Below are positions 1-4,033 of a DNA stretch of 59,203 nucleotides, piece by piece (the first letter of the stretch is position 1; each line of letters begins with the position of its first letter). A program made the translations under genes and the position numbers. Below the pieces are notes generated by a model. It was not told where the DNA came from and searched no databases. It saw only the letters and a program-made list of their open reading frames with translations. The stretch comes from an uncultured Pseudomonadota bacterium. GTDB taxonomy: Bacteria > Myxococcota_A > UBA796 > GCA-2862545. Location of the stretch: assembly GCA_903861005.1 (NCBI GenBank), contig CAIOSP010000004.1:1-59203 (forward strand), given 5' to 3'.

Positions 1-911
1 GCCGCCTGGGCGTCCAAGGACAGCGCGTCCACGTCCTCGAGGATCAGCGTGCCACCCTCGGCCGCGCCGACGAGCGCCGGCACCGAGCCCTCCACGCCGA
101 ACAGCTCCTCCACCGCAGCTCCGGCGGGCCACGCGACGCACGACTGATCGATCAGCGGGCCCCGAGCGCGAAGCCCGTGCTGGTGAAGGGCGCGCGCCAC
201 CGTCGTGCGACCAGACCCGACCGGACCCTCGACGCACACCGGCGCGTCCTTGCCCGCGGCGAGGCGCCGGATGGTGGCCCGGAGCAGCTGCGCCTCCGAG
301 GAGGTCCCCACAAGCTCGCGGTCCAGCCCGTCGGACGACGTCTCGCGGAGCACCACGCGGTCGACGAACGGGCCCAGATGCTGGACGAACTTCTCCAGGA
401 AGCGCTCGTCCTCCAGACCGAACACCCCGCCCACGGCGCGGTCCTGCAGGTAGAGCACGCCCCGGGCCACGCGCCCGACCGGCGCCGCCAGGACCGACTT
501 GATGTTCTTGAACTGGACGCTGTGCTGGCCCTGGTACCGGGGGTGCCCCTGCGCCGCGAGGATGCGGACCACCTGATGCGCCTGGAGCAGGCCCTGCCCC
601 GGCCGACGCACGCTCTCCCTCACGTCCCGCATGATCGTGCGCGACAACTCGCCCTCGACCGCCTGGCGCTCGACGCCCGAGCAGCCCACTTGGGCCCACC
701 AACGTGGCGGCTCGCCCACCGGCGCGCCCGCCTCGAACAGGGCGAGGTAGCCCTTGGTCGCGCCGACCTGCTCGACCGCGACCTCCAGGCCATTGCGGAG
801 CAGCGCCCCGGGGTCATCGATACGACCCATGTCGAGCAGCTGCTCGTAGAGCCGCAGCTGCCGTTGCAGAGACACGAGATCAGTCGCCACAGCTGCGCTC
901 GGAACCGCCAC
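1..911 (-). CDS. GAF domain plus degenerate sigma-54-type AAA+ protein (3' end off the window)
   Basis: The minus-strand frame is open from 992 to the window edge. The assigned start is GTG 911 (TTG 914 is also possible); about 303 residues are visible. The first ~190 residues look like a GAF-type sensor (LRLYEQLLDMGRIDDPGALL near the start, APVGRVARGVLYLQD near its end). The AAA+ part follows: a Walker A-like GPVGSGRTT with the usual Lys replaced by Arg, then ELFGVEGS, then GGTLILEDVDALSLDAQ in the Walker B position. The loop between ELFG and GGTL is about 8 residues shorter than usual and has no GAFTGA motif, the element that contacts sigma-54. In the family, full members are enhancer-binding transcription activators. 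This one probably cannot remodel sigma-54 holoenzyme and may be a regulator of another kind. The N-terminus is uncertain: a much better SD/ATG lies in another frame at 933 (see findings). Confidence 0.75.
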   Translation of the reverse strand, partial: MAVPSAAVATDLVSLQRQLRLYEQLLDMGRIDDPGALLRNGLEVAVEQVGATKGYLALFEAGAPVGEPPRWWAQVGCSGVERQAVEGELSRTIMRDVRESVRRPGQGLLQAHQVVRILAAQGHPRYQGQHSVQFKNIKSVLAAPVGRVARGVLYLQDRAVGGVFGLEDERFLEKFVQHLGPFVDRVVLRETSSDGLDRELVGTSSEAQLLRATIRRLAAGKDAPVCVEGPVGSGRTTVARALHQHGLRARGPLIDQSCVAWPAGAAVEELFGVEGSVPALVGAAEGGTLILEDVDALSLDAQA

Positions 912-992
912 CAAGCCCCCAAGAGCGCGACATGACCACGCTCCTTGGGAGACTATCGGACGGCATTGGCCGCGCCGTATGTGTCCGAAAAA

Positions 993-3896
993 TCAGACAG
1001 GGGTGCCGCGCCACGCGCTCGCGAGCGCCTCGACGCCGACCCGCGCGACCGTCTGCCCGCCCACGCCGCGGACCACCAGATCCGAGCCCGTCGCGACCGC
1101 GCCGAGGCGCGCGACCGGCAGCCCGGCGAACCGAGCCTCGAACGCGGCGACCTGAGCCGGGGTCACCTCGACCACCCAACGGGTGAGCGACTCGGAGAAG
1201 GCCACCGACACGTCCGTGCGGCCGTCACCGCGGAAGGTCACCGCGCCCAGTTCGATGTCCGCGCCGATCCGGCCGGCGATCGCCATCTCGGCGACCGAAA
1301 GCAACAAGCCGCCCTCGGACGCGTCGTGGACCGCGCGCACGCCGCCCACCTTGATCAGGTCGTGCAGCGCGGCGGCGAGCGCCGGGGCGTTGTCGACGTG
1401 CTGCGGGACGTTCGCGCCCAGCTCGCCGTGCTGCTCGTAGAGCGCCGAGCCGCCGAGCTCGTTCGCTGTGGAGCCGACCACGTAGATCAGGTTGCCCGCA
1501 GCCTTGAAGTCCATGGTCGCCGTGGCGTCCACGTCCGGGACAATGGCGAGAGCGCTGATCAGGAGCGTGCCAGGGATGGCATGCTTCTGGCCGTCGGCCC
1601 CGGTGTACTCGTTGTTCAGGCTGTCCTTGCCCGAGATGTACGGCGCCTTCCAGGACACCGCCGCGTCGTGGCAGCCGCGTGCCGCGCGCACCAGCCCCGC
1701 CAGTCGGTCCGGTAGGTTGGGGTTGCCCCAGCAAAAGTTGTCCAGCAGGGCGACCTGGGCCGGGTCCCCGCCCACGGCGACCACGTTGCGGACCGCCTCG
1801 TCGACCACGGCCCACGCCATGGCGTAGGGGTCGATCTTGCCGTACTGCGGGTTGATGCCGACCGACAGCGCGACGCCGCGGCCGCCCATCTTGCCGGTGG
1901 CCAGGACCACGTCGAGCGGACGCAGGACCGCCGCGTCCGACGGGCCGTCGTTCTTCACGCCCACGAACGGCTTCACGATCGTGCCAGCCTGGACCTCGTG
2001 GTCGTAGCCGCGGACGACCGACTCGTTGCTGCGGATGTTCGGCTGGGCGAGCAGCGCGAGCAGCTCGGCGCCCAGGTCGAGCGCGCCCAGATCGGGCTCC
2101 ACCAGCTTGGGCGTCTCCCAGACGGCGTTGAGCTGGAGCTGGGGGATGCCCTCGTGCAGCGCGTGCATCGACAGGTCCGCGACCACCACCTCTTCGTAGA
2201 CGAGCTTGAGGCGGCCGTTGCCGGTGAACGTGCCCAGGGCGACGGCCTCGACGCCGCGCTCAGCGCAGATCGCCTCGAAGCGCGGCCACTTGGCGGGCGA
2301 CACCGCGAACACCATGCGCTCCTGCGCCTCGGACAGCCATATCTCCCAGGGGCGAAGGCCGGAGTACTTCAGCGGCACGCGCTCCAGGTGGATGTGCGCA
2401 CCCAGCTCGGCCGCCATCTCGCCGACCGCAGAGGACAGGCCGCCCGCGCCGCAGTCGGTGACCGCCGTGTAGAGCTCCTCGTCGCGCGCGACGAGCAGCG
2501 CCTCCATCGCCTGCTTCTCGTGGATCGGGTGGCCGATCTGTACGGAAGACCCGGCGATGGTGGACGTCTCGATGTCCATCTCCATCGACGAGAAGGTGGC
2601 GCCACGCAGGCCGTCACGGCCGGTGCGACCGCCCATGGTCACCACGTAGTCGCCAATCTCAGCCTTGGACTTGTGCGCGCCGGTGGGGAGGATGCCCACG
2701 CAGCCGCAGTAGACCAGCGGATTGGCGGTGTAGCCCTCGTCGTAGCGGATGGCGCCGTTGACGGTGGGGATGCCCATCTTGTTGCCGTAGTCGGCCACGC
2801 CCTCGATCACGCCGTGCGCGATGCGGCGCGGGTGCAGGACGCCGTGCGGCAGCGCGTCGAAGGCCAGGTCGCCCGGGCCAAAGCACAGGGTGTCGGTGCA
2901 GGCGATCGGGCGGGCGCTCACGCCGAGCACGTCGCGGATGACGCCGCCGACGCCGGTGTTGGCGCCGCCGAACGGCTCAAGCGCCGACGGGTGGTTGTGG
3001 GTCTCGGCCTTGAAGGCCACGTCCCAGCCGTCCTCAAAGCCGACGATGCCCGCGTTGTCCACGAACACCGACTTCAGCCAGGGCGTCGTCGCCTTGTCCG
3101 TGGCGGCCTTGATGTAGGTCTTGAACATGCTGTCGACCACGCTGGGCACGCCGTCTTCCGTCAGCGTGATGCGGGCCTTGAAGGTCTTGTGGACGCAGTG
3201 CTCAGACCAGGTCTGCGCGAACATCTCGAGCTCGGCGTCCGTCGGGTCGCGATCCTCGGCCTTGTACGACGCCTGGATGGCGCGCATCTCGATGAGGTTG
3301 AGCGAAAGGCGGCGCTGCTTGCTGATCGCCAGCAGGCCCGCGTCGTCCGCCGCGCGCAGCCCGATGGTCTCGACCGTCAGGTCCATCTTGGTGCCCTCGA
3401 CGAACGGCGGCACGATCGCGCCGTCGAGCACCCAGGCCTCGATGACCTCGTTCGCGAGCACGCCCGCCGCGAGCTGCTTGAGGCGCGTCTCGGACAGGTC
3501 GCCCTGGATCCGGTACTGCGTGCCGGTGGCGGCCTGTGTGATGGCCGCGAAGCCGTAGTCCTTCATGGCGGCCAGCAGGGTCTCGGCGACCGAGTCCGTC
3601 GTGCCGGGCAGGGGTGCCACCTCCACCACGCGACCGGCGCCCGGGGTGAGCGTGCCCGCCGAGTGCGGCTCCAGCTCCACGAACGACGCCGTGGCAACGA
3701 CCGGGTCCAGCAGGACCTTCTCGATCACGCGGCGAACGGTCGCCTCGTCCAGCGTGGCGCCCGCGAGGAAGAACACGTCACGAACCTCGACGTGGGTCAG
3801 GCCGACGATCCCGAGCTGGCCGGCCTCAGCCACCACCTCGTGTCCGCGGGCGTCGAAGGTGTCGGGCTTGGCTGCAATTTCGACGCGGACGATCAT
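993..3896 (-). CDS. purL: Phosphoribosylformylglycinamidine synthase with N-terminal PurS-like modules
   Basis: FGAM synthase converts FGAR, ATP and glutamine-derived ammonia to FGAM, step four of cytosolic purine synthesis. The protein has 967 residues from ATG 3896, which has GGAG about 7 nt upstream; the frame is open further upstream but that extension looks non-coding. Residues ~1-75 (RVEIAAKPDTFDARGHEVVA) and ~85-160 (VVEVAPLPGTTDSVAETLLA to VIEAWVL) both resemble PurS. The PurL core follows, with SEHCVHKTF, KAETHNHPSALEPFGGANTG and CGAGGLSSAVGEMA. No glutaminase domain is present; that activity is the separate PurQ at 36859-37647. Small PurL proteins are ~720-760 residues and large ones ~1300, so this is an intermediate PurS-PurS-PurL architecture. 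It is on the same strand as the other pur genes but 21 kb from purH. Confidence 0.95.
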   Translation of the reverse strand: MIVRVEIAAKPDTFDARGHEVVAEAGQLGIVGLTHVEVRDVFFLAGATLDEATVRRVIEKVLLDPVVATASFVELEPHSAGTLTPGAGRVVEVAPLPGTTDSVAETLLAAMKDYGFAAITQAATGTQYRIQGDLSETRLKQLAAGVLANEVIEAWVLDGAIVPPFVEGTKMDLTVETIGLRAADDAGLLAISKQRRLSLNLIEMRAIQASYKAEDRDPTDAELEMFAQTWSEHCVHKTFKARITLTEDGVPSVVDSMFKTYIKAATDKATTPWLKSVFVDNAGIVGFEDGWDVAFKAETHNHPSALEPFGGANTGVGGVIRDVLGVSARPIACTDTLCFGPGDLAFDALPHGVLHPRRIAHGVIEGVADYGNKMGIPTVNGAIRYDEGYTANPLVYCGCVGILPTGAHKSKAEIGDYVVTMGGRTGRDGLRGATFSSMEMDIETSTIAGSSVQIGHPIHEKQAMEALLVARDEELYTAVTDCGAGGLSSAVGEMAAELGAHIHLERVPLKYSGLRPWEIWLSEAQERMVFAVSPAKWPRFEAICAERGVEAVALGTFTGNGRLKLVYEEVVVADLSMHALHEGIPQLQLNAVWETPKLVEPDLGALDLGAELLALLAQPNIRSNESVVRGYDHEVQAGTIVKPFVGVKNDGPSDAAVLRPLDVVLATGKMGGRGVALSVGINPQYGKIDPYAMAWAVVDEAVRNVVAVGGDPAQVALLDNFCWGNPNLPDRLAGLVRAARGCHDAAVSWKAPYISGKDSLNNEYTGADGQKHAIPGTLLISALAIVPDVDATATMDFKAAGNLIYVVGSTANELGGSALYEQHGELGANVPQHVDNAPALAAALHDLIKVGGVRAVHDASEGGLLLSVAEMAIAGRIGADIELGAVTFRGDGRTDVSVAFSESLTRWVVEVTPAQVAAFEARFAGLPVARLGAVATGSDLVVRGVGGQTVARVGVEALASAWRGTPV

Positions 3897-4033
3897 GGCG
3901 CGCTCCGTCCCGATCCAGGGCGCTTGCCACGTCCGGGACGGGGGGCGTCGACTATGGCGGCAGCCGCGATCCGGCCACCGTTCCACGCACGCTCAGACCG
4001 GATTCCGACAGCCCCGCGCGACCCGCGCCGCCT

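Follow-up and report, generated by a model that had tools for sequence, protein, structure and literature searches.

In ordinary enhancer-binding proteins, the AAA+ residues considered below hydrolyze ATP and contact sigma-54. According to PMC3162934, TyrR, DhaR and HupR are sigma-70-dependent and carry a deletion at the GAFTGA motif, and PMC10274813 states that ATP is not required by VpsR; between them, the two papers describe GAFTGA-less relatives that are active on sigma-70 promoters, some of them without ATP hydrolysis (PMC3162934, PMC10274813). For Caulobacter NtrC, an eight-residue deletion at GAFTGA is described together with a requirement for the Walker A and Walker B residues (PMC10274813). 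Like TyrR, DhaR, HupR, YplP and VpsR, the protein described here (R1) is an AAA+ protein of the same family, descended from sigma-54 activators, which has lost an intact GAFTGA; a deleted GAFTGA in a AAA+ domain of the enhancer-binding type is what marks the TyrR/DhaR/VpsR kind, and it is found in R1. R1 additionally lacks the Walker A Lys, the Walker B Asp and the sensor II Arg, as read from its alignment with ordinary activators of its own genome. NtrX (PDB entry 5m7n) shares with R1 the absence of GAFTGA in the sequence alignment, but retains GPSGAGK in the same alignment. The stretch that is eight residues shorter in R1 (13 instead of 21) corresponds in size to the deletion given for Caulobacter NtrC; NtrX and NtrC (Caulobacter, Rhodobacter) are phosphorelay response regulators, whereas R1 has a GAF-like domain instead. 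None of the curated NCBIfam cut-offs was reached by R1, which scored best with NorR (121.8 bits against a cut-off of 476), followed by NtrX (118.7 against 600), DhaR (89 against 551) and TyrR (88 against 576). Sigma-54-independent relatives of the activators are known as such; in the variant found here, Lys, Asp, the sensor II Arg and the loop are all missing together from a four-gene family that is maintained and has a putative operator in common, and its unusual part is that nearly the whole ATPase site is dismantled across the four genes.

The window, i.e. the whole stretch of DNA analyzed, comprises 59,203 nucleotides (C4:1-59203) of a genome of 5.81 Mb in 223 contigs. R1 is truncated in it because the window begins at a contig end: the frame (3-914, minus strand) is open to the contig edge, with TTG 912-914 as the first possible start codon and GTG 909-911 as the likelier one. 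The remainder of the gene, called for in the preliminary description, was obtained from contig C45, the last 141 bases of which overlap exactly with the first 141 bases of the window; the joined contigs contain a single open frame of 520 codons from TTG, or 519 from GTG. A congener (G001) has an intact R1 orthologue of 520 codons which is 94% identical, and which was encountered again as CANJMY010000042.1, from a MAG labelled Proteobacteria bacterium RH-23may17-505. To judge from the relatives, the host is probably a myxobacterium-like organism. Three paralogues in the same genome show the same pattern of changes, namely R2, which is located in tandem with R1 on C45, C201 and C204. The ORF located 5' of R1 on the same strand was recognized by its sequence, and we take it to be purL. 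Coordinates are compiled in Table 1.

Table 1. Features of the R1 locus, and palindromes located away from the R genes (window positions, or contig:position in the same genome)
Feature	Position	Strand	Remarks
R1, 5' part	3-911	minus	303 codons from GTG 909-911; GAF-like / sigma-54-type AAA+ / Fis-like HTH protein
Putative GAF-like sensor region of R1	345-878	minus	residues about 13-190; alignment to C201 and C204, elements of the AlphaFold model
AAA+ domain of R1, start	3-320	minus	residue 199 onward; Sigma54_activat match on residues 202-304 (48.3 bits); structural matches over residues 195-442
Walker A, GPVGSGRTT	201-227	minus	residues 230-238; Arg236 (207-209) replaces Lys
Walker B region, LILEDVD	27-47	minus	residues 290-296; E-D replaces D-E
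ELFG-to-GGTL stretch	57-95	minus	13 residues, without GAFTGA loop; sequence and alignment
Imperfect inverted repeat CCAAGAGCG...CGCTCCTTGG	919-948		between palindrome and R1 start; largely conserved in G001
Palindrome GTCTGATTTTTCGGAC	983-998	minus-strand reading	71 nt before R1 GTG; covers purL stop codon 993-995
purL-like gene	993-3986	minus	ORF
Palindromes on C1	C1:10649, C1:33201		one flanked by response regulator and PAS-kinase-EAL protein, the other by RR-Hpt protein and kinase
Palindrome on C62	C62:14762		flanked by LuxR-type regulator and AMP-binding ligase
Palindrome on C81	C81:20532		flanked by PAS-kinase-RR
Palindrome on C86	C86:66780		flanked by lipoprotein-like ORF (no family scan)
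Palindrome on C89	C89:7776		flanked by PQQ-repeat-like protein
Palindrome on C188	C188:2872		flanked by WYL protein
Palindrome on C199	C199:13115		flanked by GAF-PAS-kinase-RR

A search with the Pfam model Sigma54_activat, proposed at the outset, yielded 48.3 bits for the R1 fragment and 79.7 bits for the full-length orthologue; as the cut-off is 20.2, the kinship is not due to chance. The model matches all four paralogue families (R1, R2, C201, C204). The Pfam models GAF and HTH_8 did not match R1 at E ≤ 1. Among the four families, a GAF match was restricted to C201 (GAF, 1.7e-8) and C204 (GAF_2, 9e-7). With HTH_8, the tandem paralogue R2 reached 21.7 bits (1.7e-4), just below the cut-off of 22, and C204 an E value of 0.68, while R1 and C201 gave no match. 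We infer a GAF-like domain in R1 from its alignment with C201 and C204, and a C-terminal HTH from the HTH_8 match of R2 and the AlphaFold model. Of the designation of R1 as a GAF-sensing protein, the part that stands is the homology to C201 and C204; a Pfam GAF match is lacking in R1 itself.

The AlphaFold model of R1, built from an 11-row alignment, had a mean pLDDT of 77.6 and a pTM of 0.62, with values of mostly 82-95 in the AAA+ domain, 43-88 in the GAF-like part and 86-90 for residues 471-510; residues 465-508 form a confident three-helix C-terminal unit. The best PDB match in Foldseek was NtrX of Brucella abortus (5m7n; 6.7e-21), which likewise ranked first when PDB was compared by sequence (1.8e-28). 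Rescoring by VIA-align, which was confined to Foldseek's matches, so that absence from its list is uninformative, gave Z scores of 29.0 for FlrC (1.7 Å, 239 residues), 28.9 for FleQ, 28.8 for NtrX and 27.7 for VpsR, differences (29.0 to 27.7) that are too small for ranking. The AAA+ fold is kept in the model of R1, as had been supposed before.

The three motifs that had drawn attention to R1, i.e., GPVGSGRTT, LILEDVD and the stretch of 13 residues between ELFG and GGTL, were read in the minus-strand frame, and the departures seen in them recur in the orthologue and the three paralogues. Ordinary sigma-54-type activators of the same genome have exactly 21 residues between ELFG and GGTL in 11 of 11 aligned sequences, and all 11 contain the Lys, D-E, and GAFTGA, GSFTGA or GAFTDA. 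Alignment with these further places an Arg where sensor I has Asn, a His at the first arginine finger and an Ala at the sensor II Arg position of R1, in which only the second arginine finger is retained. Among the six R sequences compared (R1 and R2 from both species, C201, C204), all have Arg for the Walker A Lys, as against Lys in 31/31 rows of the GAHSTA proteins described below and in 49/50 other rows. Walker B Asp is replaced by Glu in 6/6, the sensor II Arg is present in 0/6 (Ala or Thr instead), and the columns of the GAFTGA F and T are unfilled in 6/6. The first arginine finger is present in one sequence and the second in all six. The loop is wholly deleted in R2, and the ELFG-to-GGTL stretch has 15 residues in C201 and C204 each. 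In the congener, the genome of which is 85% complete, only R1 and R2 of this family were seen. Of 22 PF00158 matches in the own genome, the analysis covered the 11 ordinary activators and five fragments that belong to the four R genes, with six weak matches outside this set. Since rpoN is present along with the 11 ordinary activators, sigma-54 itself has not been lost from the genome. In the alignments, the residues for ATPase activity and sigma-54 contact are gone in R1, as first described, and the orthologue and the three paralogues have in common both the Arg and a loop that is shortened or absent, which fits the distinct subfamily that such a pattern had been expected to indicate. If R1 were an ordinary ATPase activator in which Arg simply stands in for Lys and the loop is short, this would agree with the retained second arginine finger and a score above the Sigma54_activat cut-off, but it is very improbable, given that Walker A Lys, Walker B Asp, sensor I, sensor II Arg and the whole GAFTGA have changed together in 6/6 sequences.

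The absence of several catalytic residues, and the contig end that cuts the gene, might also be taken as signs of a decaying pseudogene, or of assembly errors behind the odd residues. This explanation was rejected and is hardly credible: the 520-residue orthologue has the same changes and comes from an independent assembly, three paralogues carry them as well, and dN/dS of R1 is about 0.1. Between the two species, dN is 0.031 and dS 0.284 for R1, i.e., dN/dS is 0.108 (GAF part, 0.109; AAA+, 0.101; last 70 codons at the C-terminus, 0.136); for R2, dN/dS is 0.141. The neighboring genes, which we read as purL, panB and panC, gave 0.078, 0.088 and 0.091, respectively. Since dS of these three is much below that of the R genes, the latter are faster-evolving overall, though still constrained. 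The case envisaged in the preliminary description, of relatives with Lys and GAFTGA beside a decaying copy, was not encountered, the values for the whole gene (0.108) and AAA+ (0.101) being set against 0.078-0.091 for the neighbors.

A profile of the four paralogues was run against 377 phylum genomes, with three candidates scored per genome. Among the matches listed, scores outside the genus were ≤307 bits, as compared to 618-800 bits inside it, and no R-type protein was found outside the genus. The best relatives outside the genus, among the matches listed, were GAF-AAA-Fis proteins in which the GAFTGA position is occupied by GAHSTA or a close variant. Members of this family occur phylum-wide (L025, L026, L027, L029, L038, L060, L063, L081-L106; 31 rows in the alignment), 20 of the 31 rows having exact GAHSTA and the others a near form. 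Lys is present in 31/31 rows, and Walker B D, Walker B E, the second finger and the sensor II Arg in 30/31 each; the rows stem largely from the 30 top-scoring loci in the profile search, and 16 loci came from a search with a single pattern that includes GGTL..E, so that row counts are not frequencies. A full-text literature search for "GAHSTA" retrieved no papers. In the GAHSTA proteins to which Pfam was applied (L057, L063) the domain order is that of R1, but the family differs in that its ATPase site is intact and only the sigma-54 loop is altered; His-Ser at loop positions 3-4 combined with an intact ATPase site defines them, and in the R rows these columns are empty.

In the maximum likelihood tree, the six R sequences form one clade (98/87; found in 97% of 200 bootstrap trees), with L067 as its sister (97/81). 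The R clade is not nested within the GAHSTA proteins in this tree, and its origin from them is left unsettled by it. Because the R sequences fall into one clade, loss of the ATPase site looks like a single event in this genus, followed by duplication. L067 (5596-6897; Acidobacteria MAG ZC4RG22) encodes an AAA+/HTH_8 protein and is the only protein seen with a Walker A Arg outside the genus, a candidate for an independent case. It is similar to R1 in its Walker A sequence GEPGTGR and in the absence of GAFTGA, with a 12-residue loop, but it lacks GAF, has a strong HTH_8 match (50 bits) and retains the sensor II Arg. Its composition is unusual and its branch long, for which it was flagged in the tree analysis, and it thus may be a parallel case.

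The palindrome upstream of R1 (Table 1) has counterparts upstream of R2 (GTCTGGTTTTCCGGAC, 95 nt), C201 (GTCTGGAATTCCGGAC, 59 nt) and C204 (GTCCGATTTTCCGGAT, 44 or 77 nt depending on the start codon), and the consensus RTCYGR-W4-YCRGAY precedes all four R genes. The search pattern RTCYGRWWWWYCRGAY, derived from these four sites and then counted genome-wide, occurs at 12 places in the 5.81 Mb genome, versus a Markov expectation of 0.03-0.18, and at four in the congener; the reversed control gave 0. Eight places are left when the four founding sites are subtracted (Table 1), and a signaling or regulator gene flanks six of these eight, a raw count with no background rate beside it. The four sites of the congener are those of R1, R2, the LuxR-type gene and the RR-Hpt gene, and their positions match those in the own genome. 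A narrower pattern, GTCYGRWWWWYCRGAC, was found in 49 of the 377 phylum genomes, with 10 matches in the own genome, four in the congener, 66 in G146 and ≤2 in all others; as its reversed control also matches 14 genomes (≤2 matches each), a single site elsewhere means little. The 66 palindromes of G146, of the GTCYGR-W4-YCRGAC type (e.g., C24:2895-2941, C26:249-295), are repeat-like, and some pairs are 31 bases apart. Palindromes of the 7-4-7 form were not clearly enriched before 31 GAHSTA genes (four seen vs. 1.8 expected; other spacers similar). Downstream of some of the palindromes, -10-like hexamers were noticed, an impression gained by eye and not scored. The imperfect inverted repeat preceding R1 might possibly be an operator or an RNA hairpin. 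A leader peptide starting at ATG 930-932 was considered and dropped, its stop codon not being conserved in G001 (by eye).

The palindrome may be bound by the R proteins or by another regulator, such as the LuxR-type protein P0002. The R proteins are suggested by the fact that the site accompanied all four genes through deep duplication, and that, in the samples covered by the searches, neither site nor genes occur outside the genus. Compared by eye, the four paralogues differ in their recognition helices, which together with HTH_8 matches only in R2 (sub-threshold) and C204 argues against one palindrome being bound by all four. For P0002 speaks a perfect, conserved site in front of its gene. 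Homologues of P0002 were searched in 58 relatives and matched in 10, a close orthologue (98%) occurring only in the congener; since this orthologue is genus-confined like the R family, co-occurrence cannot separate the two. P0002 homologues adjoin GAHSTA genes twice in G013, where at two separate loci the gene of a LuxR-type regulator overlaps that of a GAHSTA-type protein or lies directly next to it (L159:4144-6659, L060:5257-7706), and in three further cases. A LuxR-type profile matched five loci near GAHSTA genes (L060, L029, L106, L098, L104), for which mostly short flanks were covered; it had been built partly from L060 and L029, two of the five. One GTCCGAAAATTCGGAC-like site per locus recurs elsewhere, next to a gene that resembles those of sigma-70-family factors (L133, L134, L136, L137, L138, L145, from other genomes). 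At ≥6 of the 13 foreign loci viewed, the gene adjoining the site is presumably a sigma-70-type factor, as recognized from its ORF; in view of these it is possible that some other, older regulator, a third candidate, binds a similar site.

We consider it reasonably probable that R1 is a regulator independent of sigma-54 and of ATPase activity, consisting of a GAF-like sensor, an AAA+ scaffold and a putative Fis-like DNA-binding end, and that it belongs to a small, selectively maintained family of pseudo-enhancer-binding proteins in a genus-specific signaling regulon. Binding of a ligand to the GAF-like domain would alter assembly of the AAA+ scaffold and, in turn, DNA binding; R1 would act at ordinary sigma-70-type promoters as activator or repressor, and its AAA+ domain, as a non-hydrolyzing scaffold, would not perform ATP-driven remodeling of sigma-54 polymerase. 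The four R genes would belong to one regulon, marked by RTCYGR-W4-YCRGAY. Ligand sensing, a non-hydrolyzing scaffold and DNA binding make up the most economical mechanism. The proposal, made in the preliminary description, of a phosphate-independent regulator comes near to this and is in line with the published GAFTGA-less relatives. Counted against a sigma-54- and ATPase-independent regulator are the second arginine finger retained in 6/6 sequences, the weak or absent HTH_8 matches and differing helices, on account of which DNA binding is termed putative, and the restriction of the Arg outside the genus to L067.

The main rivals are mixed rings with real activators and a new ligand in the pocket. 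R1 and its paralogues could be modulators that enter mixed rings with ordinary activators and poison or tune them, the decoy originally envisaged. The retained fold and second arginine finger, the HTH that is weak or undetected in R1 and C201, and the ordinary activators in the same genome are all compatible with this. We nevertheless regard it as unlikely, as the nearest genomic relatives are distant (C59, 40% over 115 residues), making a match of the interfaces uncertain, the model has a confident three-helix unit at residues 465-508, and dN/dS of the last 70 codons, 0.136, is low for a useless part. Rather less credible still is that the altered pocket binds another ligand, e.g. c-di-GMP, by way of the Walker A Arg, so that a ligand other than ATP would control R1 as in VpsR and FleQ. 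Both are among the structural matches (Z of 27.7 and 28.9), one palindrome adjoins the gene of a kinase-EAL protein, and according to PMC10714721 it is Arg residues next to Walker A that bind c-di-GMP in VfmH/FleQ; but the published Arg position lies after Walker A, whereas the Arg of R1 is at the Lys position itself, and no c-di-GMP contact motif has been mapped on R1.

The sigma-54- and ATPase-independent reading can be extended to a bolder one, which we put forward tentatively and think unlikely as a whole: four pseudo-AAA+ GAF-type proteins, in which ATPase activity and sigma-54 contact were lost once and which then multiplied, might bind a common TGTCYGR-N4-YCGGACA-like operator before their own genes and before phosphorelay genes, and form a cross-regulating sensory network on a fossil sigma-54 motor, operating without ATP or sigma-54. 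As a warning, a Sigma54_activat match is no proof of sigma-54 control. The family amounts to a natural experiment: the AAA+ motor of a transcription activator was taken apart one residue after another, yet selection has retained it in four copies alongside functioning activators, and such a system would allow asking what role the AAA+ ring has beyond hydrolyzing ATP.
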